A DNA stretch of 64,000 nucleotides from Molossus alvarezi (Eukaryota > Chordata > Mammalia > Chiroptera > Molossidae). Below, in pieces: positions 2,253 to 63,772 of this stretch (position 1 is its first letter; each line of letters starts with the position of its first letter). The DNA lies in assembly GCA_037176705.1 (NCBI GenBank), contig CM073907.1, positions 14,229,001-14,293,000 of the forward strand, read 5' to 3'. The notes beneath the pieces were generated by a model, which saw only the letters and a list, made by a program, of their open reading frames with translations, made no database searches and was not told the origin of the DNA. The position numbers and the translations under genes are program-made.

Positions 2253-2396
2253 GACTTAACACCGAAGAAGATGGGTCTCAGCCTGAGTCACATGAGGAGG
2301 GCACACAACTTACTCTGACACCTGAAGAAAAACCTTCTTCTTCCACCAATTTCACCTGTGTCTTCTCCACATCCAGGACTCCACTCGGCGATGAGG
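2253..2396 (+). CDS. E1: 48-residue repeat exon, phase 1-1
   Basis: Candidate internal coding exon of an unidentified gene. The acceptor CAG ends at 2252 after a T-rich tract, and the donor GTGAGA begins at 2397. The exon starts with the last two bases of a codon and ends with the first base of the next, so the reading frame survives joining to any other copy. Residues 14-33 read HEEGTQLTLTPEEKPSSSTN. They lack the VIDLT core of the later copies and are followed by an N-F-T sequon and a cysteine. If the donor were ignored, the frame would stay open to a TGA at 2510-2512. This is the most diverged copy, and the spacer separates it from the main array. Function unknown. Confidence 0.55.
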
Positions 2397-3298
2397 GTGA
2401 GAAATGTGCTGAGGTGGGATCTGAGACTGAAGAAGAGATGCAGCCGAGTTGCTTAGCCCAGTCTCTACTTAGTCTACTTTCTCCTTCGACACAGGAAGGG
2501 CTTCAGGGCTGAGACTGGTACTAAAGTGTCTGCAGAGGGACACACAGGGAGTGTGACTTCAAGGACAAGGCAAGGTCCCTCAGCACAAAGTTTCTACATA
2601 GCATCACTGGGACAGTTGTGGCTGAGGTAGTGGACAGTGCCCATATGTTGATGGGGGTTCAGTCAGAACCTTCCCCTCAGATGAGCACAAACTCATATCC
2701 TCACATACGCACATCTGTCCCCCTTCATACCCATTTCCCCTGCTTTTTCCTTGCTTGCTCTAGACACAGGCCTTCCCTCCACCTCTATCATTTCCACTCT
2801 CTAGTAGCACTACTCAGGTACAACCTTACCTCCATCCTTCACACAATCATTTTCAGACCTACCCATTTACACACTAGTTCCTCACAGAATTCACACTCCT
2901 CACACACATCATCTGGATTACATTTCTCAATCTAGGTCAACCTTTACAAACTCCTATGCCCTGAAGGAAATGAACTTTCTTTCAGCTGTTGTCTTTCTAA
3001 TCCACATGACTCCTCAGGCACCAGGCCTTCAGTCCTTCATAGAGATGTATGTTCTGGGAGCTCACAGACAGCTCTCTTACATTCTCCATCTCACAGAAAG
3101 AACAGGTACCACTCCCGTTCAGAGGTGCTGTCACATCACATAACACACATGCAGACACCTCCATACTACGTCCCCTTTACTGACATCAGAAACACTCACC
3201 AGATATGTCGCTGTCATACATCCAACTCCACAGAACATTCATACAAAGTAGCATCCTCATTCCCACGTAGTTATACATGTAAACCCCTGAATAAAATG

Positions 3299-3480
3299 TT
3301 TGACAAGAGATGCAGCTGAGCTGCTCAGCCCAGTTTCTACGTAGATCCCTTTCCCCTCAGAAACAGGAAGGGCTTCAGGGCAGACCCACTAGTACTAAAG
3401 TTTCTGCAGGAAGACAACAGGGAGTGTGCCTTCAAGGACAGTACATGGTCCCTCAGCACTAATCTCTTACATAGCTGGAG
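3299..3480 (+). repeat. Internal duplicate of the exon's downstream flank (R1)
   Basis: This stretch resembles 2428-2610 of the same unit. Both share GAGATGCAGC, a pyrimidine tract ending in CAG, GGAAGGGCTTCAGGGC, ACTAGTACTAAAG and GGTCCCTCAGCAC. The offset is about 872 bases. The similarity starts some 35 bases after the E1 donor, so the exon proper was not copied. The duplicate has lost one base next to GAGATG and has no stop at the equivalent of the TGA. Confidence 0.75.
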
Positions 3481-4956
3481 ATTTCCCATAAACACACACT
3501 TTCACCACATGTTCACACAGGTCGTGTCCATCTTAACTCCTACAAACATTGCACACATATTCTCATTTTCTTATGTTTGAAAATTTTTTTCCTAGCATTC
3601 CATCCATTCCAGCAAAATGTTTCACCTCTTGGAACCCAGAAGCCTGTATCGCTGTGGATCAGTAAATGGAAGAGAATGGAGGGGCACCCAGGAGGTGTGT
3701 ATGGCAATGCCTGGAAGTCTCACATGTCATTTCCATTTATTTTTCACTGTAGAAACATAATTGTATGGTGAGAACTACCTGCAAAGGGAGCTGATGAATA
3801 TAATATAGTTGCATTTCCAGGGAGAAAATCGTCATTGGTGTCAGTACCATTTACAGTGAACCTCCTGTCTAAAAACACAGTCACCATGACATACATTGAC
3901 ACAATAAATATTATGGTGCATATAATATTTGCATAGGAACCATGTTATATTCTCTCTGTAGATGGAGGCCAGGTAGATTCACGGAACACTTCACATAGTT
4001 GATTTTTATTGATTGTTCAATGCACAAATAAAACACAAATAGCAAACATAGAAACACGTCTATTATTTTTATTTCCCAACAAAGCTATAAATAGAAAAAC
4101 ATGCTTTGCATATAGACACAAGGCAACGACCCTATCTCAAGGCAATAAGATTGCAATGATTATTCTTCCTCAGACAACTTATCCTACATCTTTCTTAATG
4201 ACAAGCAAACTGAGGCTGCTAAGAATGAACTATTCAATCGAATCAAAGTGAATATGTGTCTAGACAATGCCCAGCAATAAGCTGAGTGACCTGCCTAATA
4301 GTCCATACAAGGTTGCTCAGTACCAAAATATATATCTTATCATTTTATTTTTTCTGGAAAAAAAAGAATACGTTTTTTTTTGTGTGTGGTATCAGTTCTT
4401 TAATCCAAGGGATATTTTACTGTATTATATTTTGAGTAACTGGTGTGTTTGTTAACCTTTTATTATTATGTTGTATCAATTGACCTTTTTAAACTATGTC
4501 TTCCATTTGATTTTATATTTATCTCTTCCCTTTACACTTATCTGTAAGATAGTCTATGTATCAATTATTCAATTTAAAGCTTTATTTTGTTACTATCTGG
4601 TTCTAATTTGTTTATTTATTTATTTTTAACCTTGCTAGACTTCTTTTTTTCTCTCAGTTTTAAATTCTCCATTTTTATTTCAGTGCATTGACTTGCCATG
4701 TTGTCTTTTAAAATTTTCATTGATTATTAGTTTATTTTTGTTACAGATGTTTCTCCTATTCCCTTCACTGATTCCCCCCTCCCCCGCTCTCCCTGCCCTG
4801 TCCCCAGCTTTGTAGTCCATGTCCATTGTTCATGCATACATGCATATAAGTTCTGTGGTTTATCCCTCCCCCACCACTCCCTCTTCTGGGGATTGTCAGT
4901 CTGTACCCGACTTCCACATCTCTGGGACTACCCCATTCCTCAGACTGTTATGTTCA

Positions 4957-8755: not shown

Positions 8756-8864
8756 TTTTGTTTAGTGTGGTTATATTTTTCTTTCCATTTCTCATGCTAA
8801 TTACAGCTGTCCTTTTAACATTTCCTGCAGTGATGTTTTGGTGCTAATGTATTCCCTTAGCCTT

Positions 8865-14040: not shown

Positions 14041-16865
14041 GACCCCAGGGTATCAACATCCGAGTCAGCTAGGAAAGGGAGGAGGATGAAGGGCACACAG
14101 GTGTGTATGGCAATGCCCGGAAGTAGCACATGTCATTTTCATTCATTTTCCATTGTAGAAGCCAAATCACATCATTGTTAAGTCCAGGTAAATTGAAAAA
14201 AGCAGCCTCAGTTCCATTTACAAAGAACCTATATGTTCACACCCAGTCACCCATGATATATATTGACAATAAATATTACTGTGTATTAAATATTCTCATG
14301 GGAACAGTGTGACATTGTCCATAAAGATGGAGGCTACGTGTGTTTACTGACTATGTCACATAGTAGACTCTGATTATTTAGTTGAGAGATAAAAACACAA
14401 ACACACACAAAAAAACATGGGACACATCTTTATTATTTTTAACTTTTTAGCAAAGTTAAATCATTTGACAATGCTTTGCAACATAAACAAAAGGCAGCAG
14501 CCCTACCTCAAGGCTATAAGATAGGAAAAATTCTTCCTCACAAAACTTATCCTACATCTCTCCTAATGACAAGCTAACTGAGGATGCTATGAATGGACTA
14601 CTCAATTGGATCAAAGGGATGTATGGTCTAGACAAACCCGAGCAATAAGTTCAGTGACCTGCCCAATAGTTCATACAAGGTTGCACACTACAAAAATATG
14701 CTCAGATGTTTCGGCATTGTCTCAAACGTGATCAGCAGTAGAAGCAATAATTCCACAGAAAGAGCACTTGAAAGGACTGGAGCAGTCCAAGGAGTTTAGT
14801 GGAAATTTATTGGAAGAAATAATGGAAGAGGAACTAAGTGGCTTAGTTTTATGAGAGAAACATGGAAGAATATGAGCCATATAAGGGCATGTTACATTGC
14901 CAGGATGGTAAAAAGGCACTCATAACTTAAAACAGCCCCAAAGTGGTAGGATCCTCAAGAACTGAACTAGAGGTAAAGTACAGAGATACCTAATCAAAGA
15001 CCCCATCACATTCATGTAGTTACTTAGCCAATGTTTTCACATTCAATTTTATCCCTCATCACACCTTTTGCACTCACTATCCTCATTAATTTTTATAACC
15101 TACATTCATCTGAATTCCCCATCTCTACCATTGTCTCCACCAATTAAAGACTTATAATTTCTCTGACTCTTAAAGACATAGATTATTAGTATTACTCCTT
15201 TTAAATTTTATGGAAGTAAAATAACACAGTATATACTTTGTGTCTGGTTCCTTTCACTCCTCATTATATTTGTATAAATTGTTTATGTTGCATGTAACTC
15301 TAATTTGTCCATTCTTGATATATAATGCCATTGCATGAATATTATTTCCTTACTGATTATACACTTCTGAGCATTTGGGTTGCTTTGAGTCTGGGACAAC
15401 TTGAAAAGCTGATGATCTGAATATTCTATATCAGGAATTTGTCACTTTGGACACATTTATGCTTGTTGAATGATTAAGAGTTAAATTGCTAAGTGTTAAT
15501 TTTTATATCTTAATGGCTTCAAAACTCAATCTTTCATTCCTTTACATTCTAATAGCAGCACGTTACTGCACACTTAATCTTACACACTCTTCTCTGCACA
15601 TTGCATTTTTGTCAAAGTCCAGGTATTTGTCTTCTTATACACGTTGATTTTCACATCCTCATGATCTTTGATGTATCCCTATTTTTTTTTACAAACACAG
15701 AAATTCCACTAGTCTCAAAAACAATATTCTCCATAAATCATTCTATATCTAAACCATATAATATATAAAACACACACATAGCCCTGGCCGGTTTGGCTCA
15801 GCGGTTAGAGCGTCCGCCTGTGGTCCGGAGAGACCCGGGTTTGGTTCCCGCTAAGGGCATGTACCTCGGTTGCAGTTTGTCCCCGGCCCTGGTTGGTCGT
15901 GCGGGTGGCAGCCACTCGATGTGTCCCTTCCACATCGATGTTTCCCTCTCTCTCTCTTCCTCTCTCTCCCTCCCACTCTATCTGTACAAAAAAATGGAAA
16001 AATGTCCTTGAGTGAGGATTAAAAACAAAACAAAAAACACACACATAAATCCATAATTTTAGGAAATGCAATCTACACACATACATATGTGTTGACTAAT
16101 ACTGAGCCACGAAGCATACAGCCCATTCTGTCACACAATACTCGTCCCTTATACTGATATGCAAACACCAAATCAATCACACAATGAACATTAACCCAGT
16201 ATGAACCAACATGTTGTGGGCTTGTGTAAACACCACGCATATTAGAGTTACCACCAAATACTGCTACAAATATCAATAACACATAACCAGACACATTCAT
16301 GAAAGATGAAGAAAATCTTAACTAGTTAAATTATGAGAAATGAACTTGGTTAACATTGAAACAGAGACAGTGACATAATACTAATGCACACTTTAATTTC
16401 TTCTAAAATAAAAACTTATTTTATACATCCCGATATATTTCTCAATCAACATATACATCAGTATAAATAAATATACATGCAGAAGACATTATAAAAGATG
16501 AACCACATATACCCTAATTATACACTTTTCTTAATGAAGAAATTTAGTAGATATCTAATTTTTTTCCTGTATACTGTTTTTCAAGGCAAGGTTCTAAGTT
16601 TTGATAATTGTATAGATTTCCAGTAATGTCACCTACAAGATACCCAAACCCAGTGACATCCACCAAACATGCAACTGTAATGTGTTTACTTAAAGTTTGG
16701 AGGAAATGGAATTTTTCATGGGAAAACCACCTGATTTTCTATGAAAGCAAGTGTCATGTGTGGTGATGATGCCTGATGGGTAATGTCCACTCAATGTGGA
16801 GTTTTGAATACCACAAGCCCCAGAAAATGCCTCATTTCTGTTCTTTTGAAAATTCCATTTCTCAG
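14041..16865 (+). repeat. Array unit resuming after the spacer
   Basis: Unit similarity restarts near 14041, at the stretch matching about 35140-35200, and runs to the acceptor of E2. This segment is the right-hand part of a unit without its own exon. It contains the SINE at 15781-16033. Confidence 0.8.
15781..16033 (+). mobile_element. Ves SINE
   Basis: Well-preserved copy: GCCCTGGCCGG start, A box TGGCTCAGCGG, B box GGTTTGGTTCC, a CT-rich tract and an A-rich tail. It is flanked by the 14-bp repeat AAAACACACACATA (15767-15780 and 16034-16047). The insertion is specific to this unit. Confidence 0.93.
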
Positions 16866-17009
16866 GACTTAACAACGAAGAGGATGGGTCTCAGCCTGAG
16901 TCATTTGTGAAGATCACAGATCTTAATCTGACTGCTGAAGATAACCCTGCGTCTTCTGCCAATTTTACCTGTGTCTCCTCCACATCCAGGGCTCCACTTG
17001 GCGATGAGG
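16866..17009 (+). CDS. E2: 48-residue repeat exon, phase 1-1
   Basis: Acceptor CAG ends at 16865, donor GTGAGG begins at 17010, and the frame is open. Residues 14-33 are FVKITDLNLTAEDNPASSAN, with two N-glycosylation-type sequons (NLT and NFT) and Cys36. The core ITDLN is a weak version of the VIDLT seen later. Nearly all of this exon is base-for-base identical to E4 two units away, while the neighbouring E3 differs strongly, which points to gene conversion. Readthrough past the donor would stop at 17123-17125. Confidence 0.58.
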
Positions 17010-20862: not shown

Positions 20863-21006
20863 GACTTAACATCGAAGATGATGGGTCTCAACCTGAGTCA
20901 CGTGAAGAGGTCACAGATCTTACTCTGACAAGTGAAGAAAACCCCAGTTCCTCCACCAGTTTTACCTGTGTCTCCTCCACATCCAGGACTCCACTTGGCG
21001 ATGAGG
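20863..21006 (+). CDS. E3: 48-residue repeat exon, phase 1-1
   Basis: Acceptor CAG ends at 20862 and donor GTGAGG begins at 21007. Residues 14-33 are REEVTDLTLTSEENPSSSTS. VTDLT followed by SEE is a plausible SUMO-interacting-type motif (hydrophobic core, then acidic residues). It differs from E2 at about 23 of 144 bases by hand count, and most of these change the amino acid. The 135 bases of intron before the exon differ at only about six places. Readthrough would end at 21120-21122. Confidence 0.58.
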
Positions 21007-25130: not shown

Positions 25131-25274
25131 GACTTAACAACGAAGAGGATGGGTCTCAGCCTGAGTCATTTGTGAAGATCACAGATCTTAATCTGACTGC
25201 TGAAGATAACCCTGCGTCTTCTGCCAATTTTACCTGTGTCTCCTCCACATCCAGGACACCACTCGGCGATGAGG
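25131..25274 (+). CDS. E4: 48-residue repeat exon, phase 1-1
   Basis: Acceptor ends at 25130, donor GTGAGG begins at 25275. The protein is the same as E2 except Thr for Ala at residue 43. The identity with E2 extends upstream to about 25065 (shared AATACCACAAGCCCCAG, not found in E3). Farther out the two units differ at several sites per hundred bases. Readthrough would end at 25388-25390. Confidence 0.58.
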
Positions 25275-29125: not shown

Positions 29126-29269
29126 GACTTAACACCAAAGATGATGGATCTCTGCCTGAGTCATTCACGGAGATCATAGATCATACTCAGGCAGCTGAAG
29201 ATAATTCTTCAACCACTACCAAATTTACCTGTGTCTCCTGCCCATCCAGGGCTCCTCTCGGCGATGAGG
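29126..29269 (+). CDS. E5: 48-residue repeat exon, phase 1-1
   Basis: Acceptor ends at 29125, donor GTGAGG begins at 29270. Residues 14-33 are FTEIIDHTQAAEDNSSTTTK. The core IIDHT is intermediate between the older copies and VIDLT, and an N-S-S sequon follows. It keeps Cys36 and has an extra Cys39. Readthrough would end at 29383-29385. By sequence it is the closest relative of the amplified E6-E13 type. Confidence 0.58.
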
Positions 29270-33722: not shown

Positions 33723-33866
33723 GACTTAACACCGAAGATTATGGTTCTCAGCCTGAGTCGTTCATGAAGGTGATAGACCTTACTCAAACAGATGAAGATA
33801 AGACTTCGACTTCTACCGATATTACCCGTGTCTACGGCCCATCCAGGGCTCCACTCGGCGATGAGG
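33723..33866 (+). CDS. E6: 48-residue repeat exon with VIDLT core
   Basis: Acceptor CAG ends at 33722, donor GTGAGG begins at 33867, and both introns are phase 1. The split first codon becomes Gly when joined to an upstream copy. Residues 17-21 are VIDLT and residues 24-26 are DED, the arrangement of a SUMO-interacting motif such as those in PIAS and RNF4 proteins. Around it the exon is rich in Ser, Thr, Asp and Glu, with no predicted fold, membrane segment or catalytic motif. Cys36 of the older copies is Arg here. Residue 8 is Gly (base 33744 is G); E7-E13 all have Val. Readthrough would give 38 more codons and stop at 33980-33982. A secreted Ser/Thr-rich repeat is an alternative. Confidence 0.62.
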
Positions 33867-37993: not shown

Positions 37994-38137
37994 GACTTAA
38001 CACCGAAGATTATGTTTCTCAGCCTGAGTCGTTCATGAAGGTGATAGACCTTACTCAAACAGATGAAGATAAGACTTCGACTTCTACCGATATTACCCGT
38101 GTCTACGGCCCATCCAGGGCTCCACTCGGCGATGAGG
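37994..38137 (+). CDS. E7: 48-residue repeat exon with VIDLT core
   Basis: Acceptor ends at 37993, donor GTGAGG begins at 38138. The protein is identical to E6 except Val for Gly at residue 8, and identical to E8-E13. Readthrough would stop at 38251-38253. The identity across copies fits very recent duplication or continuing conversion. Confidence 0.62.
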
Positions 38138-42263: not shown

Positions 42264-42407
42264 GACTTAACACCGAAGATTATGTTTCTCAGCCTGAGTC
42301 GTTCATGAAGGTGATAGACCTTACTCAAACAGATGAAGATAAGACTTCGACTTCTACCGATATTACCCGTGTCTACGGCCCATCCAGGGCTCCACTCGGC
42401 GATGAGG
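42264..42407 (+). CDS. E8: 48-residue repeat exon with VIDLT core
   Basis: Acceptor ends at 42263, donor GTGAGG begins at 42408. Protein identical to E7. Readthrough stop at 42521-42523. Confidence 0.62.
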
Positions 42408-45475: not shown

Positions 45476-46537
45476 CAACCTTTCGAACTTTTATTTTCTA
45501 ATACCAGCACATTATTGCACACTTAATCTTACGCGCTCTCAACCGCACTCTGCCATTTTTGTCAAAGTCCAGGTGTTTGTTTTCTTATACACGTTGATTT
45601 TCACGTCCTCATGATCTGTGATGTATGCCTAACACACAAATTCCACTAGTCTCAAAGAGAATATTGTCAGTAAAGCATTCCTTATGTAAATCATACAGCA
45701 TATAACACGCACACACCACTCCATAATTTTAGGAAATGCAATCTACATACATACATATGTGTTGCATAATACAGAGCCGCAAAGCACACAGCCCATTCTC
45801 AGTCACACAAAACTCGTCCCATATGCCGACTTGCAAACACAAAATCAATCACACACTAAACATTAACCCAGTTTGATCCAACATGTTGTGGGCTTGTGTA
45901 AACACCACGAAAATTAGTGTCACCTCCTCATACTGCTACAAATGTGAATAACACATAAAAAGACACATTCATGAAAGATGCTGAAAATCTTAACTAGTTA
46001 AAAATGAGTAATGAGGTTGATTTACATTGAAACAGAGACAGTGACGTAATACTAATGCACACTTTAATTACTTCTAAAATAAAAACGTATTTTATACATC
46101 CCTATATATATACTCAGTCAACATATATATCAGTAAAAGTAAATATACATGCAGAAGACATTATAAATATTGAACCACATATACCCTAATTGCACACTTT
46201 TTCATCAGGAGATTTAGTGCATATCTAACATTTCGTTCCTGCATACTGTTTTTGAGGCATAGTTCTAAGTTTTTGATAATCGTATAGATCTCCAGTAATG
46301 TCACATACAAGATACCCAAACCCACTGACATGCACCAAATATGCAACTGAAACGTGTTTACCTAAAGTTTGGAGGAAATAAAATTTTCCGTGGGAAAGCC
46401 ACCTTAATTTCTATGAAAGCAAGTGTCATGTGTGGTGATGATGCCTGATGTGTAATGCCCACTCAATGTGAAGTTTTGAATAACACAAACCCTTGAAAAT
46501 GCCTCATTTCTGTTCTCTTGAAAATTCCATTTCTCAG

Positions 46538-46681
46538 GACTTAACACCGAAGATTATGTTTCTCAGCCTGAGTCGTTCATGAAGGTGATAGACCTTACTC
46601 AAACAGATGAAGATAAGACTTCGACTTCTACCGATATTACCCGTGTCTACGGCCCATCCAGGGCTCCACTCGGCGATGAGG
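46538..46681 (+). CDS. E9: 48-residue repeat exon with VIDLT core
   Basis: Acceptor ends at 46537, donor GTGAGG begins at 46682. Protein identical to E7. Readthrough stop at 46795-46797. The exon is unchanged although the rest of this unit is of a different subtype. Confidence 0.62.
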
Positions 46682-49490
46682 GTGAGGAATATGCTGAGGT
46701 GGCATCTGAGATTGAACAAGAGATGCAGCCGAGCTGCTTAGCCCGGTCTCTACTAAGTCTACTTTCTCCTCCAACACAGGGAGGGCTTGAGGGCTGACAG
46801 ACTAGTACTAACTTTTCTGCAGAGGGACATACAGGGAGTGTGACTTCAAGGACAAGGCAAGGTCCCTCAGCAGAATTTTCCTACATAGCATGACTGGGAC
46901 AGCTGTGACTGAGGTAGTGGACAGTGCTCATATGTGGGTGTGGGTTCAGACAGAACCTTCCCCTCAGATGAGCACAAACACATATCCTCACATACGCACA
47001 ACTGTCCTCCTTCATACCAGTTGTGGCCCCATTTCCCCTGCTTTTTCCTTGTTTGCTCTAGACACAGGCCTTCCCTCCACATCTATCATCTCCACTCTCT
47101 AGTAGCACTAGTCAGGTACAACCTTACCTCCATCCTTCACACAATCATTTTCAGACCTACCCATTTACACACTAGTTCCTCAAAGAATAAACACCCCTCA
47201 CACACATCATCTGGATTACATTTCTCAATCTAGGTCAACCTTTAGCAAACTCATATGCCCTGAAGATAATGAACGTTCTTTCAGCTGTTTTTTTTCTAAT
47301 CCACTTGACTCGTTAGCACCAGGCTTTCGGACCTTCATAGAGCTGAATGTTCTGGGATCTCACACACAGCTCTCTTACATTCTCCATCTCACAGGAAGAA
47401 CAGGTACCACTGCTGTTCACAGGTGCTGTCACACCACATAACACACGTGCACACATCCCCATTCACCATCCCTGTTACCTACATCAGAAACACTCACCAG
47501 ATTGTCGCTGCACATACATACAACTCTGCAGTGCATTCATACAAAGGAGCATCCTCATTTCCACCACATTATATATGTAAACGCCCCAAACAAATCTTTG
47601 ACAAGAGATGGAGCCGAGCTGCTCAACCCAGTTTCTACTTAGATCCCTTTCCCCTCAGAATCAGGAAGGGCTTCAGGGCAGACTGACTAGTACTAAAATT
47701 AACACAGAAAGACAAGAGGGTGTGTGCCTTCAAAGACAGGGCAAGGTCCCTCAGCCCTAATCTCCTACATAGCTGGGGTTTCACATAAACACACTTTTAC
47801 CACATGTTTACACAGGGCATGTGCATTTTAACTCCTACAAACTATGCACACATATTCTCATTTACTTATATTTTAAGATATTTTCCTAGCATTTTACCAA
47901 ATCCAGCAAAATGTTTCAATTTTGAGAACCCAGAAGCCTTTATCCCTGTTTAGGAGTAAATGGAAGAGAATGGAGGGCACCCAGGAGGTTTATATTGCAA
48001 TGCCTGGAAGTCTCACATGTCATTTCCATTGTAGAACCATAATCGTATGGTCAGAACTATCTGCAAAGGGAGCTGATGAATATAATACAGTTGCATTTCC
48101 AGGGAGAAAAGCATCATTAGTCTCATTTCCACTTACACTGAACCTCCTGTCTAAGAACACAGTCACCATGACATACATTGACATAATCAATGTTATGGTG
48201 CATATACTATTTGCATAGGAACCTTATTATATTCTCTGTGTAGATGGAGGCCCGGTGGATTCACGGAACACTTCACATAGTTGATTCTTATTGACTGTTC
48301 AATGCACAAAGAAAAACACATATAACAAACAAAAACATCATGTCTATTATTTTTATTTCCCAAGAAAGCTAAAAATACAAAGAGAGGCTTTGCAGTATAG
48401 ACACAAGGCAGCGGCCCTACCTCAAGGCTACAGAATTGGAAAGATTCTTCATCCTCACACAACTTATCCTACATCTCACCTAATGACAAGCTAACTGAGG
48501 CTGCTAGGAATGGACTATTTAATCGGATCAAAGGGATGTTGGGTGTAGAGAAAACCTAGCAATGAGCTGAGTGACATACCCAATTGTCCACTCAAGGTTG
48601 CTCAGTACAAAAATCAACTCAGTTGCTTCTGCATTGTCTCAAATGTGATCAGCAGTAAAGCAATAATTCCACAGGAAGAGCACTTGAAAGGACGGGAGCC
48701 GTCCAGGGAGATGAATGAAAATTTATTGGAGGAAATGATGGGTGAGCAACCAAGTGACTTAGAGTTTCAGGAGGGAAACATGGAAGAATATGGTACTATG
48801 AACCATATAAGGGCATGTTACCTGGCCAGGATGGTAAAAAGGCACTCATAACTTTTAACATCCCCAAAGTGGTAACATCCTCAAGAACTGAACTAGAGGT
48901 AGAGTACAGAGATACCCAATCGAGACCCCATCACATTCATGTATTTTCATAGCCAATGTTTTCTCATTCAATTTCATCCTTCGTCAGACCCTCGGCAGTC
49001 CCTCTGCACTCACTATCCTCATCATTCATTCCTTATAACCTCCTCCATGCATCTGAATTCTCCATGATCTCCCTTAGTCCCCAGCATTTAAAGACTTATA
49101 ATATCTCTGTCGCCTAAGCCATAGACTATTAGTTTCTCTTCGTTTAGATTATATGGAAATGGAAAAACACAGTATATGCTTTGTGTTGGTCCCTTTCACT
49201 CCTCATTCTATTTGCATCATTTGTTTACGTTGCATGTGACACTAGTATGTTCATTCTTGATATATAATGCCATTGCATGAATAATATTTTCTTACTGATT
49301 ACACATTTCTTAACATTTGTGTTGCTTTGAGTCTGGGACAACTTGAAAACCTGATGTTCTGAACATTCCATATCAGGTATTTTTCACGTTGGACATATTT
49401 CTGCTGGTTGAATGCTTAAGAGTTTAATTGTTCAGTGTTAGTTTTCATAGTCTATCCTAATGCCTACAAAACTCAACCTTTCGTACTTTT

Positions 49491-49552
49491 TTTTTTTTTT
49501 TATCCTCACCCGAGGGCATTCTTTCCATTTTTAGTTCCTATAGAGCGGGAGG

Positions 49553-49591
<39 letters not shown>

Positions 49592-49750
49592 AAACATCGA
49601 TGTGAAGGGACACATTGAGTGGCTGCCACTCGCATGACAAAAAAAGCCCGAGGACAAACTGCAACCGAGGTACATGCCCTTAGCGGGAACCGAACCAGGG
49701 TCTCTGTACCGCAGGCCGATGCTCCAACAGCTGAGCCAAACTGGCCAGGG
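49491..49750 (-). mobile_element. Ves SINE, shared site (R9 subtype)
   Basis: Second variant of the shared insertion: an uninterrupted T run, an uninterrupted GA tract of about 15 steps ending GCGCG, and CATGACAAAAAAAGCCCGAG in the body. The only other copy of this variant is at 62304-62568. The R5 copy (32413) is closer to this form than to the R6 form. Confidence 0.93.
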
Positions 49751-50810
49751 CAACCTTCCGAACTTTTATTTTCTAATACCAGCACATTATTGCACACTTA
49801 ATCTTACACACTCTCCTCTGCACTCTGCCATTTTTGTCAAAGTCCTGGTGTTTGTTTTCTTATACATGTTGATTTTCACATCCTCATGATCGGTGATGTA
49901 TGCCTAACACACAAATTCCAGTAGTCTCAAAGAGAATATTGTCAGTAAAGCATTCCTTATGTAAACAATATAGCATATAACACACACACCACTCCATAAT
50001 TTTAGGAAATGCAATCTACATACATACGTATGTGTTGCATAATACAGAGCCGCAAATCACACAGCTTATTCTCAGTCACACAAAACTCGTCCCATATGCC
50101 GACTTGCAAACACAAAGTCAATCACACACTAAACATTAACCCAGTTTGATCCAACATGTTGTGGGCTTGTGTAAACACCACGAAAATTAGTGTCACCTCC
50201 TCATACAGCTACAAATGTGAATAACACATAAAAAGACACATTCATGAAAGATGCTGAAAATCTTAACTAGTTAAAAATGAGTAATGAGGTTGATTTACAT
50301 TGAAACAGAGACAGTGACGTAATACTAATGCACACTTTAATTACTTCTAAAATAAAAACGTATTTTATACATCCCTATATATATACTCAGTCAACATATA
50401 TATCAGTAAAAGTAAATATACATGCAGAAGACATTATAAATATTGAACCACATATACCCTAATTGCACACTTTTTCATCAGGAGATTTAGTGCATATCTA
50501 ACATTTCGTTCCTGCATACTGTTTTTGAGGCATAGTTCTAAGTTTTTGATAATCGTATAGATCTCCAGTAATGTCACATACAAGATACCCAAACCCATTG
50601 ATATGCATCAAATATGCAACTGAAACGTGTTTACCTAAAGTTTGGAGGAAATAAAATTTTCCGTGGGAAAGCCACCTTAATTTCTATGAAAGCAAGTGTC
50701 ATGTGTGGTGATGATGCCTGATGTGTAATGCCCACTCAATGTGAAGTTTTGAATAACACAAACCCTTGAAAATGCCTCATTTCTGTTCTCTTGAAAATTC
50801 CATTTCTCAG

Positions 50811-50954
50811 GACTTAACACCGAAGATTATGTTTCTCAGCCTGAGTCGTTCATGAAGGTGATAGACCTTACTCAAACAGATGAAGATAAGACTTCGACTT
50901 CTACCGATATTACCCGTGTCTACGGCCCATCCAGGGCTCCACTCGGCGATGAGG
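50811..50954 (+). CDS. E10: 48-residue repeat exon with VIDLT core
   Basis: Acceptor ends at 50810, donor GTGAGG begins at 50955. Protein identical to E7. Readthrough stop at 51068-51070. Confidence 0.62.
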
Positions 50955-53753
50955 GTGAGGAATATGCTGAGGTGGCATCTGAGATTGAACAAGAGATGCA
51001 GCCGAGCTGCTTAGCCCGGTCTCTACTAAGTCTACTTTCTCCTCCAACACAGGGAGGGCTTGAGGGCTGACAGACTAGTACTAACTTTTCTGCAGAGGGA
51101 CATACAGGGAGTGTGACTTCAAGGACAAGGCAAGGTCCCTCAGCAGAATTTTCCTACATAGCATGACTGGGACAGCTGTGACTGAGGTAGTGGACAGTGC
51201 CCATATGTGGGTGTGGGTTCAGACAGAACCTTCCCCTCAGATGAGCACAAACACATATCCTCACATATGCACATCTGTCCTCCTTCATACCAGGTGTGGC
51301 CCCATTTCCCCTGCTTTTTCCTTGTTTGCTCTAGACACAGGCCTTCCCTCCACATCTATCATCTCCAGTCTCTAGTAGCACTAGTCAGGTACAACCTTAC
51401 CTCCATCCTTCACACAATCATTTTCAGACCTACCCATTTACACACTAGTTCCTCAAAGAATAAACACCCCTCACACAAATCATCTGGATTACATTCTTCA
51501 ATCTAGGTCAACCTTTAGCAAACTCATATGCCCTGAAGATAATGAACGTTCTTTCAGCTGTTTTTTTTCTAATCCACTTGACTCGTTAGCACCAGGCTTT
51601 CGGACCTTCATAGAGCTGAATGTTCTGGGATCTCACACACAGCTCTCTTACATTCTCCATCTCACAGGAAGAACAGGTACCACTGCTGTTCACAGGTGCT
51701 GTCACACCACATAACACACGTGCACACATCCCCATTCACCATCCCTGTTACCTACATCAGAAACACTCACCAGATTGTCGCTGCACATACATACAACTCT
51801 GCAGTGCATTCATACAAAGGAGCATCCTCATTTCCACCACATTATATATGTAAACACCCCAAACAAATCTTTGACAAGAGATGCAGCCGAGCTGCTCAAC
51901 CCAGTTTCTACTTAGATCCCTTTCCCCTCAGAATCAGGAAGGGCTTCAGGGCAGACTGACTAGTACTAAAATTAACACAGAAAGACAAGAGGGTGTGTGC
52001 CTTCAAAGACAGGGCAAGGTCCCTCAGCCCTAATCTCCTACATAGCTGGGGTTTCACATAAACACACTTTTACCACATGTTTACACAGGGCATGTGCATT
52101 TTAACTCCTACAAACTATGCACACATATTCTCATTTACTTATATTTTAAGATATTTTCCTAGCATTTTACCAAATCCAGCAAAATGTTTCAATTTTGAGA
52201 ACCCAGAAGCCTTTATCCCTGTTTAGGAGTAAATGGAAGAGAATGGAGGGGCACCCAGGAGGTTTATATTGCAATGCCTGGAAGTCTCACATGTCATTTC
52301 CATTGTAGAACCATAATCGTATGGTCAGAAGTACCTGCAAAGGGAGCTGATGAATATAATACAGTTGCATTTCCAGGGAGAAAAGCATCATTAGTCTCAT
52401 TTCCACTTACACTGAACCTCCTGTCTAAGAACACAGTCACCATGACATACATTGACATAATCAATGTTATGATGCATATACTATTTGCATAGGAACCTTA
52501 TTATATTCTCTGTGTAGATGGAGGCCCGGTGGATTCACGGAACACTTCACATAGTTGATTCTTATTGACTGTTCAATGCACAAAGAAAAACACATATGAC
52601 AAACAAAAACATCATGTCTATTATTTTTATTTCCCAAGAAAGCTAAAAATACAAAGAGAGGCTTTGCAGTATAGACACAAGGCAGCGGCCCTACCTCAAG
52701 GCTACAGAATTGGAAAGATTCTTCATCCTCACACAACTCATCCTACATCTCACCTAATGACAAGCTAACTGAGGCTGCTAGGAATGGACTATTTAATCGG
52801 ATCAAAGGGATGTTGGGTGTAGAGAAAACCTAGCAATGAGCTGAGTGACATACCCAATAGTCCACTCAAGGTTGCTCAGTACAAAAATCAACTCAGTTGC
52901 TTCTGCATTGTCTCAAATGTGATCAGCAGTAAAGCAATAATTCCACAGGAAGAGCACTTGAAAGGACGGGAGCCGTCCAGGGAGATGAATGAAAATTTAT
53001 TGGAGGAAATGATGGGTGAGCAACCAAGTGGCTTAGAGTTTCAGGAGGGAAACATGGAAGAATATGGTACTATGAGCCATATAAGGGCATGTTACCTGGC
53101 CAGGATGGTAAAAAGGCACTCATAACTTTTAACAGCCCCAAAGTGGTAGGATCCTCAAGAACTGAACTAGAGGTAGAGTACAGAGATACCCAATCGAGAC
53201 CCCATCACATTCATGTATTTTCATAGCCAATGTTTTCTCATTCAATTTCATTCCTCGTCAGACCCTCGGCACTCACTATCCTCATCATTCATTCCTTTTC
53301 ACCTTCTCCGTGCATCTGAATTCTCCATGCTTTGCCTTCGTGCCCAGCAAATAAAGACTTATAATATCTCTGTCTCCTAAAGCCATAGACGATTAGTGTC
53401 TCTCCTTTTAGATTATATGGAAATGGAAAAACACAGTATATACTTTGTGATGGTCACTTTCACTCCTCATCCTATGTGCATAATTTGTTTACGTTGCATG
53501 TAACACTAGTATGTTCATTCTTGATATATAATGCCATTGCATGAATAATATTTTCTTACTGATTACACATTTCTGAACATTTGGGTTGCTTTGAGTCTGG
53601 GACAACTTGAAAAGCTGATGTTCTGAACATTCTATATCAGGTATTTTTCACGTTGGACATATTTCTGCTGGGTGAATGCTTAAGAGTTTAATTGCTCAGT
53701 GTTAGTTTTCATAGTCTATCCTAATGCCTACAAAACTCAACCTTTCGTACTTT

Positions 53754-53816
53754 ATTTTATTTTTTGTACTCACCCGAGGGCATTTTTTCCATTTTTTGTT
53801 CAGATAGAGCGGGAGG

Positions 53817-53848
<32 letters not shown>

Positions 53849-54018
53849 GAGAGAGGGAAACATCGATGTGAAGGGACACATCGAGTGGCTGGCACCCGCA
53901 CGACCAACCTGGGCAGGGGACGAACTGCAACCGAGGTACATGCCCTTAGCGGGAACCGAACCCGGGTCTCTCTGTACTGCAGGACAACGCTCCAACCGCT
54001 GAGCCAAACTGGCCTGGG
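53754..54018 (-). mobile_element. Ves SINE, shared site (R10)
   Basis: R6-type variant with a shorter GA tract than R6 and R7. Confidence 0.93.
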
Positions 54019-55080
54019 CAACCTTTCGAACTTTTATTTTCTAATACCAGCACGTTATTGCACACTTAATCTTACGCGCTCTCAACCGCACTCTGCCATT
54101 TTTGTCAAAGTCCAGGTGTTTGTTTTCTTATACACGTTGATTTTCACGTCCTCATGATCTGTGATGTATGCCTAACACACAAATTCCACTAGTCTCAAAG
54201 AGAATATTGTCAGTAAAGCATTCCTTATGTAAATCATACAGCATATAACACGCACACACCACTCCATAATTTTAGGAAATGCAATCTACATACATACATA
54301 TGTGTTGCATAATACAGAGCCGCAAAGCACACAGCCCATTCTCAGTCACACAAAACTCGTCCCATATGCCGACTTGCAAACACAAAATCAATCACACACT
54401 AAACATTAACCCAGTTTGATCCAACATGTTGTGGGCTTGTGTAAACACCACGAAAATTAGTGTCACCTCCTCATACTGCTACAAATGTGAATAACACATA
54501 AAAAGACACATTCATGAAAGATGCTGAAAATCTTAACTAGTTAAAAATGAGTAATGAGGTTGATTTACATTGAAACAGAGACAGTGACGTAATACTAATG
54601 CACACTTTAATTACTTCTAAAATAAAAACGTATTTTATACATCCCTATATATATACTCAGTCAACATATATATCAGTAAAAGTAAATATACATGCAGAAG
54701 ACATTATAAATATTGAACCACATATACCCTAATTGCACACTTTTTCATCAGGAGATTTAGTGCATATCTAACATTTCGTTCCTGCATACTGTTTTTGAGG
54801 CATAGTTCTAAGTTTTTGATAATCATATAGATCTCCAGTAATGTCACATACAAGATACCCAAACCCACTGACATGCACCAAATATGCAACTGAAACGTGT
54901 TTACCTAAAGTTTGGAGGAAATAAAATTTTCCGTGGGAAAACCACCTTAATTTCTATGAAAGCAAGTGTCATGTGTGGTGATGATGCCTGATGTGTAATG
55001 CCCACTCAATGTGAAGTTTTGAATAACACAAACCCTTGAAAATGCCTCATTTCTGTTCTCTTGAAAATTCCATTTCTCAG

Positions 55081-55224
55081 GACTTAACACCGAAGATTAT
55101 GTTTCTCAGCCTGAGTCGTTCATGAAGGTGATAGACCTTACTCAAACAGATGAAGATAAGACTTCGACTTCTACCGATATTACCCGTGTCTACGGCCCAT
55201 CCAGGGCTCCACTCGGCGATGAGG
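55081..55224 (+). CDS. E11: 48-residue repeat exon with VIDLT core
   Basis: Acceptor ends at 55080, donor GTGAGG begins at 55225. Protein identical to E7. Readthrough stop at 55338-55340. Confidence 0.62.
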
Positions 55225-58023
55225 GTGAGGAATATGCTGAGGTGGCATCTGAGATTGAACAAGAGATGCAGCCGAGCTGCTTAGCCCGGTCTCTACTAAG
55301 TCTACTTTCTCCTCCAACACAGGGAGGGCTTGAGGGCTGACAGACTAGTACTAACTTTTCTGCAGAGGGACATACAGGGAGTGTGACTTCAAGGACAAGG
55401 CAAGGTCCCTCAGCAGAATTTTCCTACATAGCATGACTGGGACAGCTGTGACTGAGGTAGTGGACAGTGCCCATATGTGGGTGTGGGTTCAGACAGAACC
55501 TTCCCCTCAGATGAGCACAAACACATATCCTCACATACGCACATCTGTCCTCCTTCATACCAGGTGTGGCCCCATTTCCCCTGCTTTTTCCTTGTTTGCT
55601 CTAGACACAGGCCTTCCCTCCACATCTATCATCTCCACTCTCTAGTAGCACTAGTCAGGTACAACCTTACCTCCATCCTTCACACAATCATTTTCAGACC
55701 TACCCATTTACACACTAGTTCCTCAAAGAATAAACACCCCTCACACAAATCATCTGGATTACATTCTTCAATCTAGGTCAACCTTTAGCAAACTCATATG
55801 CCCTGAAGATAATGAACGTTCTTTCAGCTGTTTTTTTTCTAATCCACTTGACTCGTTAGCACCAGGCTTTCGGACCTTCATAGAGCTGAATGTTCTGGGA
55901 TCTCACACACAGCTCTCTTACATTCTCCATCTCACAGGAAGAACAGGTACCACTGCTGTTCACAGGTGCTGTCACACCACATAACACACGTGCACACATC
56001 CCCATTCACCATCCCTGTTACCTACATCAGAAACACTCACCAGATTGTCGCTGCACATACATACAACTCTGCAGTGCATTCATACAAAGGAGCATCCTCA
56101 TTTCCACCACATTATATATGTAAACACCCCAAACAAATCTTTGACAAGAGATGCAGCCGAGCTGCTCAACCCAGTTTCTACTTAGATCCCTTTCCCCTCA
56201 GAATCAGGAAGGGCTTCAGGGCAGACTGACTAGTACTAAAATTAACACAGAAAGACAAGAGGGTGTGTGCCTTCAAAGACAGGGCAAGGTCCCTCAGCAC
56301 TAATCTCCTACATAGCTGGGGTTTCACATAAACACACTTTTACCACATGTTTACACAGGGCATGTGCATTTTAACTCCTACAAACTATGCACACATATTC
56401 TCATTTACTTATATTTTAAGATATTTTCCTAGCATTTTACCAAATCCAGCAAAATGTTTCAATTTTGAGAACCCAGAAGCCTTTATCCCTGTTTAGGAGT
56501 AAATGGAAGAGAATGGAGGGGCACCCAGGAGGTTTATATTGCAATGCCTGGAAGTCTCACATGTCATTTCCATTGTAGAACCATAATCGTATGGTCAGAA
56601 CTATCTGCAAAGGGAGCTGATGAATATAATACAGTTGCATTTCCAGGGAGAAAAGCATCATTAGTCTCATTTCCACTTACACTGAACCTCCTGTCTAAGA
56701 ACACAGTCACCATGACATACATTGACATAATCAATGTTATGGTGCATATACTATTTGCATAGGAACCTTATTATATTCTCTGTGTAGATGGAGGCCCGGT
56801 GGATTCACGGAACACTTCACATAGTTGATTCTTATTGACTGTTCAATGCACAAAGAAAAACACATATGACAAACAAAAACATCATGTCTATTATTTTTAT
56901 TTCCCAAGAAAGCTAAAAATACAAAGAGAGGCTTTGCAGTATAGACACAAGGCAGCGGCCCTACCTCAAGGCTACAGAATTGGAAAGATTCTTCATCCTC
57001 ACACAACTCATCCTACATCTCACCTAATGACAAGCTAACTGAGGCTGCTAGGAATGGACTATTTAATCGGATCAAAGGGATGTTGGGTGTAGAGAAAACC
57101 TAGCAATGAGCTGAGTGACATACCCAATAGTCCACTCAAGGTTGCTCAGTACAAAAATCAACTCAGTTGCTTCTGCATTGTCTCAAATGTGATCAGCAGT
57201 AAAGCAATAATTCCACAGGAAGAGCACTTGAAAGGACGGGAGCCGTCCAGGGAGATGAATGAAAATTTATTGGAGGAAATGATGGGTGAGCAACCAAGTG
57301 GCTTAGAGTTTCAGGAGGGAAACATGGAAGAATATGGTACTATGAGCCATATAAGGGCATGTTACCTGGCCAGGATGGTAAAAAGGCACTCATAACTTTT
57401 AACAGCCCCAAAGTGGTAGGATCCTCAAGAACTGAACTAGAGGTAGAGTACAGAGATACCCAATCGAGACCCCATCACATTCATGTATTTTCATAGCCAA
57501 TGTTTTCTCATTCAATTTCATTCCTCGTCAGACCCTCGACACTCACTATCCTCATCATTCATTCCTTTTCACCTTCTCCGTGCATCTGAATTCTCCATGC
57601 TTTGCCTTCGTGCCCAGCAAATAAAGACTTATAATATCTCTGTCTCCTAAAGCCATAGACGATTAGTGTCTCTCCTTTTAGATTATATGGAAATGGAAAA
57701 ACACAGTATATACTTTGTGATGGTCACTTTCACTCCTCATCCTATGTGCATAATTTGTTTACGTTGCATGTAACACTAGTATGTTCATTCTTGATATATA
57801 ATGCCATTGCATGAATAATATTTTCTTACTGATTACACATTTCTGAACATTTGGGTTGCTTTGAGTCTGGGACAACTTGAAAAGCTGATGTTCTGAACAT
57901 TCTATATCAGGTATTTTTCACGTTGGACATATTTCTGCTGGGTGAATGCTTAAGAGTTTAATTGCTCAGTGTTAGTTTTCATAGTCTATCCTAATGCCTA
58001 CAAAACTCAACCTTTCGTACTTT

Positions 58024-58086
58024 ATTTTATTTTTTGTACTCACCCGAGGGCATTTTTTCCATTTTTTGTTCAGATAGAGCGGGAGG

Positions 58087-58118
<32 letters not shown>

Positions 58119-58288
58119 GAGAGAGGGAAACATCGATGTGAAGGGACACATCGAGTGGCTGGCACCCGCACGACCAACCTGGGCAGGGGACGAACTGCAA
58201 CCGAGGTACATGCCCTTAGCGGGAACCGAACCCGGGTCTCTCTGTACTGCAGGACAACGCTCCAACCGCTGAGCCAAACTGGCCTGGG
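58024..58288 (-). mobile_element. Ves SINE, shared site (R11)
   Basis: No difference from the R10 copy was seen by eye; same length and GA tract. Confidence 0.93.
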
Positions 58289-59350
58289 CAACCTTTCGAA
58301 CTTTTATTTTCTAATACCAGCACGTTATTGCACACTTAATCTTACGCGCTCTCAACCGCACTCTGCCATTTTTGTCAAAGTCCAGGTGTTTGTTTTCTTA
58401 TACACGTTGATTTTCACGTCCTCATGATCTGTGATGTATGCCTAACACACAAATTCCACTAGTCTCAAAGAGAATATTGTCAGTAAAGCATTCCTTATGT
58501 AAATCATACAGCATATAACACGCACACACCACTCCATAATTTTAGGAAATGCAATCTACATACATACATATGTGTTGCATAATACAGAGCCGCAAAGCAC
58601 ACAGCCCATTCTCAGTCACACAAAACTCGTCCCATATGCCGACTTGCAAACACAAAATCAATCACACACTAAACATTAACCCAGTTTGATCCAACATGTT
58701 GTGGGCTTGTGTAAACACCACGAAAATTAGTGTCACCTCCTCATACTGCTACAAATGTGAATAACACATAAAAAGACACATTCATGAAAGATGCTGAAAA
58801 TCTTAACTAGTTAAAAATGAGTAATGAGGTTGATTTACATTGAAACAGAGACAGTGACGTAATACTAATGCACGCTTTAATTACTTCTAAAATAAAAACG
58901 TATTTTATACATCCCTATATATATACTCAGTCAACATATATATCAGTAAAAGTAAATATACATGCAGAAGACATTATAAATATTGAACCACATATACCCT
59001 AATTGCACACTTTTTCATCAGGAGATTTAGTGCATATCTAACATTTCGTTCCTGCATACTGTTTTTGAGGCATAGTTCTAAGTTTTTGATAATCGTATAG
59101 ATCTCCAGTAATGTCACATACAAGATACCCAAACCCACTGACATGCACCAAATATGCAACTGAAACGTGTTTACCTAAAGTTTGGAGGAAATAAAATTTT
59201 CCGTGGGAAAGCCACCTTAATTTCTATGAAAGCAAGTGTCATGTGTGGTGATGATGCCTGATGTGTAATGCCCACTCAATGTGAAGTTTTGAATAACACA
59301 AACCCTTGAAAATGCCTCATTTCTGTTCTCTTGAAAATTCCATTTCTCAG

Positions 59351-59494
59351 GACTTAACACCGAAGATTATGTTTCTCAGCCTGAGTCGTTCATGAAGGTG
59401 ATAGACCTTACTCAAACAGATGAAGATAAGACTTCGACTTCTACCGATATTACCCGTGTCTACGGCCCATCCAGGGCTCCACTCGGCGATGAGG
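59351..59494 (+). CDS. E12: 48-residue repeat exon with VIDLT core
   Basis: Acceptor ends at 59350, donor GTGAGG begins at 59495. Protein identical to E7. Readthrough stop at 59608-59610. Confidence 0.62.
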
Positions 59495-62303
59495 GTGAGG
59501 AATATGCTGAGGTGGCATCTGAGATTGAACAAGAGATGCAGCCGAGCTGCTTAGCCCGGTCTCTACTAAGTCTACTTTCTCCTCCAACACAGGGAGGGCT
59601 TGAGGGCTGACAGACTAGTACTAACTTTTCTGCAGAGGGACATACAGGGAGTGTGACTTCAAGGACAAGGCAAGGTCCCTCAGCAGAATTTTCCTACATA
59701 GCATGACTGGGACAGCTGTGACTGAGGTAGTGGACAGTGCTCATATGTGGGTGTGGGTTCAGACAGAACCTTCCCCTCAGATGAGCACAAACACATATCC
59801 TCACATACGCACAACTGTCCTCCTTCATACCAGTTGTGGCCCCATTTCCCCTGCTTTTTCCTTGTTTGCTCTAGACACAGGCCTTCCCTCCACATCTATC
59901 ATCTCCACTCTCTAGTAGCACTAGTCAGGTACAACCTTACCTCCATCCTTCACACAATCATTTTCAGACCTACCCATTTACACACTAGTTCCTCAAAGAA
60001 TAAACACCCCTCACACACATCATCTGGATTACATTTCTCAATCTAGGTCAACCTTTAGCAAACTCATATGCCCTGAAAATAATGAACGTTCTTTCAGCTG
60101 TTGTTTTTCTAATCCACTTGACTCGTTAGCACCAGGCTTTCGGACCTTCATAGAGCTGAATGTTCTGGGATCTCACACACAGCTCTCTTACATTCTCCAT
60201 CTCACAGGAAGAACAGGTACCACTGCTGTTCACAGGTGCTGTCACACCACATAACACACGTGCACACATCCCCATTCACCATCCCTGTTACCTACATCAG
60301 AAACACTCACCAGATTGTCGCTGCACATACATACAACTCTGCAGTGCATTCATACAAAGGAGCATCCTCATTTCCACCACATTATATATGTAAACACCCC
60401 AAACAAATCTTTGACAAGAGATGGAGCCGAGCTGCTCAACCCAGTTTCTACTTAGATCCCTTTCCCCTCAGAATCAGGAAGGGCTTCAGGGCAGACTGAC
60501 TAGTACTAAAATTAACACAGAAAGACAAGAGGGTGTGTGCCTTCAAAGACAGGGCAAGGTCCCTCAGCCCTAATCTCCTACATAGCTGGGGTTTCACATA
60601 AACACACTTTTACCACATGTTTACACAGGGCATGTGCATTTTAACTCCTACAAACTATGCACACATATTCTCATTTACTTATATTTTAAGATATTTTCCT
60701 AGCATTTTACCAAATCCAGCAAAATGTTTCAATTTTGAGAACCCAGAAGCCTTTATCCCTGTTTAGGAGTAAATGGAAGAGAATGGAGGGCACCCAGGAG
60801 GTTTATATTGCAATGCCTGGAAGTCTCACATGTCATTTCCATTGTAGAACCATAATCGTATGGTCAGAACTATCTGCAAAGGGAGCTGATGAATATAATA
60901 CAGTTGCATTTCCAGGGAGAAAAGCATCATTAGTCTCATTTCCACTTACACTGAACCTCCTGTCTAAGAACACAGTCACCATGACATACATTGACATAAT
61001 CAATGTTATGGTGCATATACTATTTGCATAGGAACCTTATTATATTCTCTGTGTAGATGGAGGCCCGGTGGATTCACGGAACACTTCACATAGTTGATTC
61101 TTATTGACTGTTCAATGCACAAAGAAAAACACATATAACAAACAAAAACATCATGTCTATTATTTTTATTTCCCAAGAAAGCTAAAAATACAAAGAGAGG
61201 CTTTGCAGTATAGACACAAGGCAGCGGCCCTACCTCAAGGCTACAGAATTGGAAAGATTCTTCATCCTCACACAACTTATCCTACATCTCACCTAATGAC
61301 AAGCTAACTGAGGCTGCTAGGAATGGACTATTTAATCGGATCAAAGGGATGTTGGGTGTAGAGAAAACCTAGCAATGAGCTGAGTGACATACCCAATTGT
61401 CCACTCAAGGTTGCTCAGTACAAAAATCAACTCAGTTGCTTCTGCATTGTCTCAAATGTGATCAGCAGTAAAGCAATAATTCCACAGGAAGAGCACTTGA
61501 AAGGACGGGAGCCGTCCAGGGAGATGAATGAAAATTTATTGGAGGAAATGATGGGTGAGCAACCAAGTGACTTAGAGTTTCAGGAGGGAAACATGGAAGA
61601 ATATGGTACTATGAACCATATAAGGGCATGTTACCTGGCCAGGATGGTAAAAAGGCACTCATAACTTTTAACATCCCCAAAGTGGTAACATCCTCAAGAA
61701 CTGAACTAGAGGTAGAGTACAGAGATACCCAATCGAGACCCCATCACATTCATGTATTTTCATAGCCAATGTTTTCTCATTCAATTTCATCCTTCGTCAG
61801 ACCCTCGGCAGTCCCTCTGCACTCACTATCCTCATCATTCATTCCTTATAACCTCCTCCATGCATCTGAATTCTCCATGATCTCCCTTAGTCCCCAGCAT
61901 TTAAAGACTTATAATATCTCTGTCGCCTAAGCCATAGACTATTAGTTTCTCTTCGTTTAGATTATATGGAAATGGAAAAACACAGTATATGCTTTGTGTT
62001 GGTCCCTTTCACTCCTCATTCTATTTGCATCATTTGTTTACGTTGCATGTGACACTAGTATGTTCATTCTTGATATATAATGCCATTGCATGAATAATAT
62101 TTTCTTACTGATTACACATTTCTTAACATTTGTGTTGCTTTGAGTCTGGGACAACTTGAAAACCTGATGTTCTGAACATTCCATATCAGGTATTTTTCAC
62201 GTTGGACATATTTCTGCTGGTTGAATGCTTAAGAGTTTAATTGTTCAGTGTTAGTTTTCATAGTCTATCCTAATGCCTACAAAACTCAACCTTTCGTACT
62301 TTT

Positions 62304-62366
62304 TTTTTTTTTTTTATCCTCACCCGAGGGCATTCTTTCCATTTTTAGTTCCTATAGAGCGGGAGG

Positions 62367-62409
<43 letters not shown>

Positions 62410-62568
62410 AAACATCGATGTGAAGGGACACATTGAGTGGCTGCCACTCGCATGACAAAAAAAGCCCGAGGACAAACTGCAACCGAGGTACATGCCCTTA
62501 GCGGGAACCGAACCAGGGTCTCTGTACCGCAGGCCGATGCTCCAACAGCTGAGCCAAACTGGCCAGGG
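62304..62568 (-). mobile_element. Ves SINE, shared site (R12)
   Basis: Same variant as 49491-49750, with a T run and GA tract each a few bases longer. Confidence 0.93.
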
Positions 62569-63628
62569 CAACCTTCCGAACTTTTATTTTCTAATACCAG
62601 CACATTATTGCACACTTAATCTTACACACTCTCCTCTGCACTCTGCCATTTTTGTCAAAGTCCTGGTGTTTGTTTTCTTATACATGTTGATTTTCACATC
62701 CTCATGATCGGTGATGTATGCCTAACACACAAATTCCAGTAGTCTCAAAGAGAATATTGTCAGTAAAGCATTCCTTATGTAAACAATATAGCATATAACA
62801 CACACACCACTCCATAATTTTAGGAAATGCAATCTACATACATACGTATGTGTTGCATAATACAGAGCCGCAAATCACACAGCTTATTCTCAGTCACACA
62901 AAACTCGTCCCATATGCCGACTTGCAAACACAAAGTCAATCACACACTAAACATTAACCCAGTTTGATCCAACATGTTGTGGGCTTGTGTAAACACCACG
63001 AAAATTAGTGTCACCTCCTCATACAGCTACAAATGTGAATAACACATAAAAAGACACATTCATGAAAGATGCTGAAAATCTTAACTAGTTAAAAATGAGT
63101 AATGAGGTTGATTTACATTGAAACAGAGACAGTGACGTAATACTAATGCACACTTTAATTACTTCTAAAATAAAAACGTATTTTATACATCCCTATATAT
63201 ATACTCAGTCAACATATATATCAGTAAAAGTAAATATACATGCAGAAGACATTATAAATATTGAACCACATATACCCTAATTGCACACTTTTTCATCAGG
63301 AGATTTAGTGCATATCTAACATTTCGTTCCTGCATACTGTTTTTGAGGCATAGTTCTAAGTTTTTGATAATCGTATAGATCTCCAGTAATGTCACATACA
63401 AGATACCCAAACCCATTGATATGCATCAAATATGCAACTGAAACGTGTTTACCTAAAGTTTGGAGGAAATAAAATTTTCCGTGGGAAAACCACCTTAATT
63501 TCTATGAAAGCAAGTGTCATGTGTGGTGATGATGCCTGATGTGTAATGCCCACTCAATGTGAAGTTTTGAATAACACAAACCCTTGAAAATGCCTCATTT
63601 CTGTTCTCTTGAAATTTCCATTTCTCAG

Positions 63629-63772
63629 GACTTAACACCGAAGATTATGTTTCTCAGCCTGAGTCGTTCATGAAGGTGATAGACCTTACTCAAACAGATG
63701 AAGATAAGACTTCGACTTCTACCGATATTACCCGTGTCTACGGCCCATCCAGGGCTCCACTCGGCGATGAGG
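63629..63772 (+). CDS. E13: 48-residue repeat exon with VIDLT core
   Basis: Acceptor ends at 63628, donor GTGAGG begins at 63773. Protein identical to E7. The intron just before it has one private change (GAAATTTCC in place of GAAAATTCC). Readthrough stop at 63886-63888. Confidence 0.62.

Follow-up and report, generated by a model that had tools for sequence, protein, structure and literature searches.

Genes carrying many similar small exons are known from arrays of the ANKRD36 type, and macrosatellites are built of large homogeneous units placed head to tail. The locus described here resembles the former in general description and shares the arrangement of its units with the latter. In the kringle IV-2 region of LPA, a unit of 5.6 kb is present in 1 to about 40 copies, and the same source indicates, for LPA, that short reads struggle to resolve coding exons repeated along with kilobases of intron and that such exons may vary strongly between alleles (PMC11462820). 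The arrangement of LPA kringle IV-2 is the nearest one known to that found in the window, i.e. the whole stretch of 64,000 nt of Molossus alvarezi DNA analysed in this study.

With the last copy as query, 13 copies of a 144-nt segment were located in the window, all on the + strand (Table 1). In each of them an AG precedes the segment, the 144 nt are open in one common frame and GGTGAG stands at the end, so that the tandem array of open segments with splice-site sequences is confirmed. The initial annotation had claimed exactly this, namely 13 segments in the same direction with a common acceptor, an indel-free open frame of 144 nt and a GTGAG donor. It was also right in assigning phase 1 to both exon ends, since the joined codon G|GA encodes glycine and the repeat is thereby closed in frame, giving by sequence a 48-residue cycle (GLN...GDE). 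The other two forward frames contain 1-3 and 5-6 stops in the 13 copies, and the reverse frames 1-5 stops, save one, which is open just in copies 6-13.

Table 1. Positions of the exon copies and other features of the array in the window.
Feature	Position	Strand	Remark
Exon copy 1	2253..2396	+	old, divergent
Exon copy 2	16866..17009	+	old; exon nearly identical to copy 4
Exon copy 3	20863..21006	+	old
Exon copy 4	25131..25274	+	old
Exon copy 5	29126..29269	+	old
Exon copy 6	33723..33866	+	opens young block; VIDLT peptide with G in place of one V
Exon copy 7	37994..38137	+	young block, identical peptide
Exon copy 8	42264..42407	+	young block
Exon copy 9	46538..46681	+	young block
Exon copy 10	50811..50954	+	young block
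Exon copy 11	55081..55224	+	young block
Exon copy 12	59351..59494	+	young block
Exon copy 13	63629..63772	+	young block
Post-donor open stretch, example copy 11	55225..55340	+	TGA at 55338-55340; equal length open in 13/13
One young-block repeat unit	54081..58350		4270 bp, head to tail
Young units 9-13	45538..64000		recent three-unit duplication
Duplicated ~174 bp stretch, example unit	55259-55432 and 56144-56316		
Remains of exon-less repeat unit	14071..15778		between copies 1 and 2; continues into the upstream portion of unit 2
Antisense L1	~4690-10740		limits by eye; reverse-transcriptase fragment at 6221-6805

The units of the young block have a period of about 4.27 kb and abut head to tail. 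Because bases 1 and 64000 of the window both lie inside units, the array extends past the window at both ends, and the earlier count of at least 13 copies stands as a lower bound. Copies 6-13 form the young block, in which the units differ by 0.1-2.5%, and copies 1-5 are older and divergent. A recent duplication of three units took place within the young block: unit 9 differs from unit 12 at 5 of 4266 sites, and unit 10 from unit 13 at 2 of the 1368 compared. Dense differences from the other young units, running from about 2400 nt after exon 9 to about 200 nt before exon 10, recur between exons 12 and 13, as if, ahead of the three-unit duplication, about 1.7 kb had been swapped in from a further copy that is not seen here. 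Each unit contains two versions, about 80% identical and about 885 bp apart, of a stretch of about 174 bp starting about 35 nt past the exon donor. In each of the eight young copies (6-13) a SINE lies about 1.08 kb upstream of the exon. These SINEs (58060-58300 and equivalents, one before each young copy) look like VES elements, a type found in bats, and three others at 15781-16034, 23419-23685 and 12795-12976 look VES-like too. Such elements are usable as time marks for the array.

A spacing of one segment per 4.0-4.6 kb, as originally described, applies to most neighbouring copies but not to copies 1 and 2, which are separated by 14.6 kb comprising an antisense L1, other DNA and the remnant of a unit that lacks the exon. 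Near the presumed 5' end of the L1, G+C-rich 19-nt tandem repeats are found at 10289-10503. Two short pieces resembling the 3' end of L1, recognised by eye and by a 12-mer that they have in common with this L1, are located at 1840-2105, some 150 bp before exon copy 1, and at 13060-13260.

Splice sites were scanned with simple frequency matrices, using copies 1-6 and 11 as representatives, copy 1 contributing just the part of the unit from -120 to about +2080. To be considered, acceptors and donors had to be conserved in 7/7 or at least 6/7 copies, at two strengths, and they were paired when 50-400 nt apart with a common open frame. At all four settings, the 144-nt segment was the only conserved combination of acceptor, open frame and donor in the unit; no second exon-like pair of 50-400 nt was found on either strand in the seven copies. 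The donor ranks within the top 0.6-1.0% of the GTs in the window and is the only one on the + strand conserved at that strength in all seven copies, with one other on the - strand. The acceptor is weak owing to a poor pyrimidine tract and, by these matrices, is placed in the top 6.7-8.7% of AGs in 12 copies and in the top 3.5% in copy 13. The longest open run common to the copies, of 91 codons, includes the exon, the runner-up having 51 codons. When one unit and positions 10720-14100 were scanned for other exons against Pfam in six frames, nothing scored above a curated cut-off.

Not a single indel was found in the exon over the 15 pairwise comparisons of copies 1-6; their flanks, which are much longer than the exon, hold 231 indel events (49 upstream and 182 downstream). 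With 75 changes in the exon and 0.04-0.05 indels per change, the probability of observing none is about 0.02-0.05. The 120 nt upstream of the exon, with 32 changes, are indel-free as well. Missing stops are weak evidence, because 400 of 1685 runs of a neutral simulation were also stop-free in all six copies.

These features suggest that the array is the interior of one + strand gene, in which an internal exon of 144 nt and phase 1-1 has been copied head to tail together with about 4 kb of intron, and the exons are spliced into 48-residue repeats, a reading to which we assign a probability of about 0.57. A coding-exon VNTR of known kind is the best reading of the locus. Splicing of successive exons would produce a run of acidic, Ser/Thr-rich repeats (GLN..DE), and unequal crossing-over between near-identical units would add or remove an exon with its intron while leaving the frame intact, so that the protein would gain or lose repeats of 48 residues. 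One block may be homogenised in this way, with older copies persisting alongside. The layout of young and old copies and the three-unit duplication fit unequal crossing-over as in LPA kringle IV-2, and by analogy with that system the number of repeats probably varies between alleles; in the one haplotype at hand the three-unit duplication is suggestive of copy-number change. Neither end of the presumed gene falls inside the window. Transcription, exon-to-exon splicing, coding function and allelic variation are what we infer from this arrangement.

The evolution of the exon was followed in copies 1-5 together with copies 6 and/or 11 (rate, selection and scan analyses) and in copies 1-6 (pairwise comparison), copies 7-10, 12 and 13 being left out of the rate and pairwise analyses as near-identical. 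The pairwise difference over 15 pairs is 18.4% in the exon, 9.8% in the next 114 nt, 11.0% upstream and 12.4% downstream. In trees of seven copies, the changes per non-CpG site amount to 0.48 in the exon, 0.27 in the 114 nt that follow, 0.30 beyond these on the downstream side and 0.22 upstream. With CpG sites excluded, the exon changes about 1.6 times as fast as its downstream flank (p = 8e-4; over all sites, p = 3e-4). CpG decay as the sole reason for the fast exon was rejected, as the excess persists without CpG columns. The excess is maximal in codons 9-32, and 24 nt at either end of the exon stay near background; since change is already slow over the final 24 nt, the excess gives no mark of the donor. 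Of all reliably aligned stretches, the exon is the one that has diverged most among the older copies. In a divergence scan of 318 segments of 144 nt (mean 0.119, s.d. 0.031), those in the exon reach 0.188; seven at -999 to -927 score higher (0.194-0.264) and were disregarded, as copy 2 carries its own SINE there. The next-highest region has 0.172 at +1953, leaving the exon with a lead that is clear, not large, and the exon had been picked beforehand from its splice sites and frame, not by divergence.

The pN/pS of the exon is 0.82 (bootstrap 0.57-1.26) against a median of 0.80 (0.55-1.31) in the neutral simulation, and in this comparison neither codon-level constraint nor positive selection was seen in the exon. 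Positive selection by dN/dS is not claimed, since 0.82 equals the neutral output of the same method. Because synonymous and nonsynonymous change rise together, an older genealogy of the exon or a local mutation effect accounts for its fast change no less well than selection. The exon is open, indel-free and bounded by conserved splice-site sequences, yet has a neutral pN/pS, and its coding status therefore rests on the splice sites, the open frame and the absent indels. Copies 2 and 4, the only one of the 15 pairs outside the range of 13-27% exon difference, are 2.1% apart within the exon, against 11-12% across the flanks. This mismatch and the disagreement of the exon tree with the flank trees indicate a probable exchange of short stretches among units. 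In copies 7-13, none of the 128 variable sites falls in the exon or the following 114 nt; we do not claim that purifying selection is acting on the young block, because the variable sites cluster through exchange between units.

The neutral pN/pS could also mean that the array is a non-coding macrosatellite, its unit spreading by unequal crossing-over and the exon-like segment being an inactive relic of a founding gene. The roughly equal changes at the three codon positions of the exon (26/20/29) and the unit without any exon between copies 1 and 2 point in the same direction. We consider this unlikely, as all 13 copies have kept AG and GTGAG and are free of indels and stops, despite the degree to which the exons of copies 1-6 have diverged from one another, and the segment has a distinct rate of its own.

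Still less probable is that each copy represents a terminal (3') exon with an unused GTGAG, running for 85 codons from the acceptor to a common TGA, so that the copies would supply alternative C-termini or the ends of separate duplicated genes. The frame does continue past the donor, with 38 further codons open to an identical stop in 13/13 copies; the 114 nt past the donor show 0 indels over 15 comparisons, copy 1 has a 2-nt indel directly after the stop, and the post-donor pN/pS of 0.66 is, as a raw figure, below that of the exon. However, the post-donor stretch changes at a rate near that of the intron, the donor is singled out by its conservation on the + strand, and part of the stretch recurs, unaccompanied by the exon, about 885 bp downstream in each unit. 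Furthermore, scans of the unit, which were not designed for first exons, recognised none. It is hardly credible that the copies are alternatively spliced or mutually exclusive cassette exons, of which one or few per transcript would give variants and not a long repeat protein: the diversity of the peptides and the concentration of change in the middle codons would suit such a choice, but the seven copies with the same peptide offer none, and a symmetric exon needs no exclusivity.

Read as the internal exon of a repeat protein, the segment would encode an acidic, Ser/Thr-rich peptide that occurs in seven distinct forms among the 13 copies, copies 7-13 being identical and copy 6 differing by one residue. 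No Pfam family above the cut-off, and no kringle, was detected in 4 of the 13 copies scanned together with the post-donor stretch; the kringle domain was absent also from the six-frame Pfam scan of one unit, so the array lacks the domain by which membership in the apolipoprotein(a)/plasminogen family was judged. The PDB gave nothing for copy 1 and one hit at E 0.66 for copy 11, and a PDB profile search returned one weak match (E 0.06), mostly in the post-donor stretch. Rfam gave 0 matches at gathering scores, and no tRNA was found. For a short and probably disordered segment, the lack of matches in Pfam, PDB and Rfam is weak evidence on the novelty of the family. A structure model of the exon with the post-donor stretch is of low confidence (mean pLDDT 61.5), below what a fold search would need. 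Pattern searches of viral and prokaryote contigs returned 96 and 184 matches, respectively, none of them a relative. The literature was searched for tandem exon duplication in bats with positive selection, for tandemly duplicated exons with symmetric phase and for accelerated exons with conserved introns in venom, each with no match, and nothing on the array was recognised among the matches listed in broader searches.

Copies 6-13 contain VIDLTQTDED, that is, a VIDLT core with an acidic tail. In PIAS1, VIDLT serves as the SUMO-interacting motif, and cores of the type (I/V)DLT favour SUMO2/3 (PMC4907222); more generally, such motifs are described as a four-residue core rich in V/I/L, aided by acidic or Ser/Thr neighbours (PMC12751080). 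The strict pattern, chosen post hoc, is present in 8 of the 13 copies; among 200000 shuffled peptides it arose in 171 and the loose core in 47074. VIDLT with its acidic tail may thus be considered as a candidate SUMO-binding core in eight repeats, a lead found after the fact. A long shot would be a nuclear protein of this bat in which every duplicated exon adds one SUMO-interacting repeat to a chain of variable copy number. The VIDLT-type core would have originated in the ancestry of copies 6-13 and then multiplied eightfold, the older copies keeping divergent cores. If this were true, the grip on poly-SUMO, e.g. at PML bodies, a gathering place of antiviral factors, would be set by exon number, and the repeats, if real, would offer a natural series of SUMO-binding valency.

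The initial annotation had proposed the interior of an LPA-like gene. What agrees with it are the symmetric phase-1 exon, the kilobase-sized unit, the young block beside old copies and the single exon-like pair per unit; the array did not come with a sign of codon-level selection or with a match in the family and structure databases. As a further mammalian case in which old divergent and young identical blocks adjoin, the locus would help to test how such arrays arise and if exons are kept apart by selection while conversion mixes introns. Compared with the motif protein PIAS1 (PMC4907222), the likeness is one of motif only: the VIDLT here is followed by an acidic and Ser/Thr stretch, and 5 of the 13 copies lack the strict form. 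In contrast to macrosatellites, the exon-like element stays open in all 13 copies that have it. Internal tandem repeats of human segmental-duplication genes, e.g. Morpheus, are similar in that tandem expansion alters the proteins of recently duplicated genes, but they average about 30 bp in or beside an exon, as that survey reports for human, whereas here an exon and 4 kb of intron are repeated (PMC2812944). The LPA kringle IV-2 array likewise combines kilobase-scale units of exon and intron with a near-identical block beside related single copies. In the source cited its unit has two exons (about 160 and 182 bp) and encodes a kringle, whereas the present unit, known from one haplotype, has one 144-nt exon without a Pfam match (PMC11462820). 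The features of the LPA kind that are found here are head-to-tail units of 4.27 kb, a near-identical block, and an exon whose length and phase are safe for the frame.
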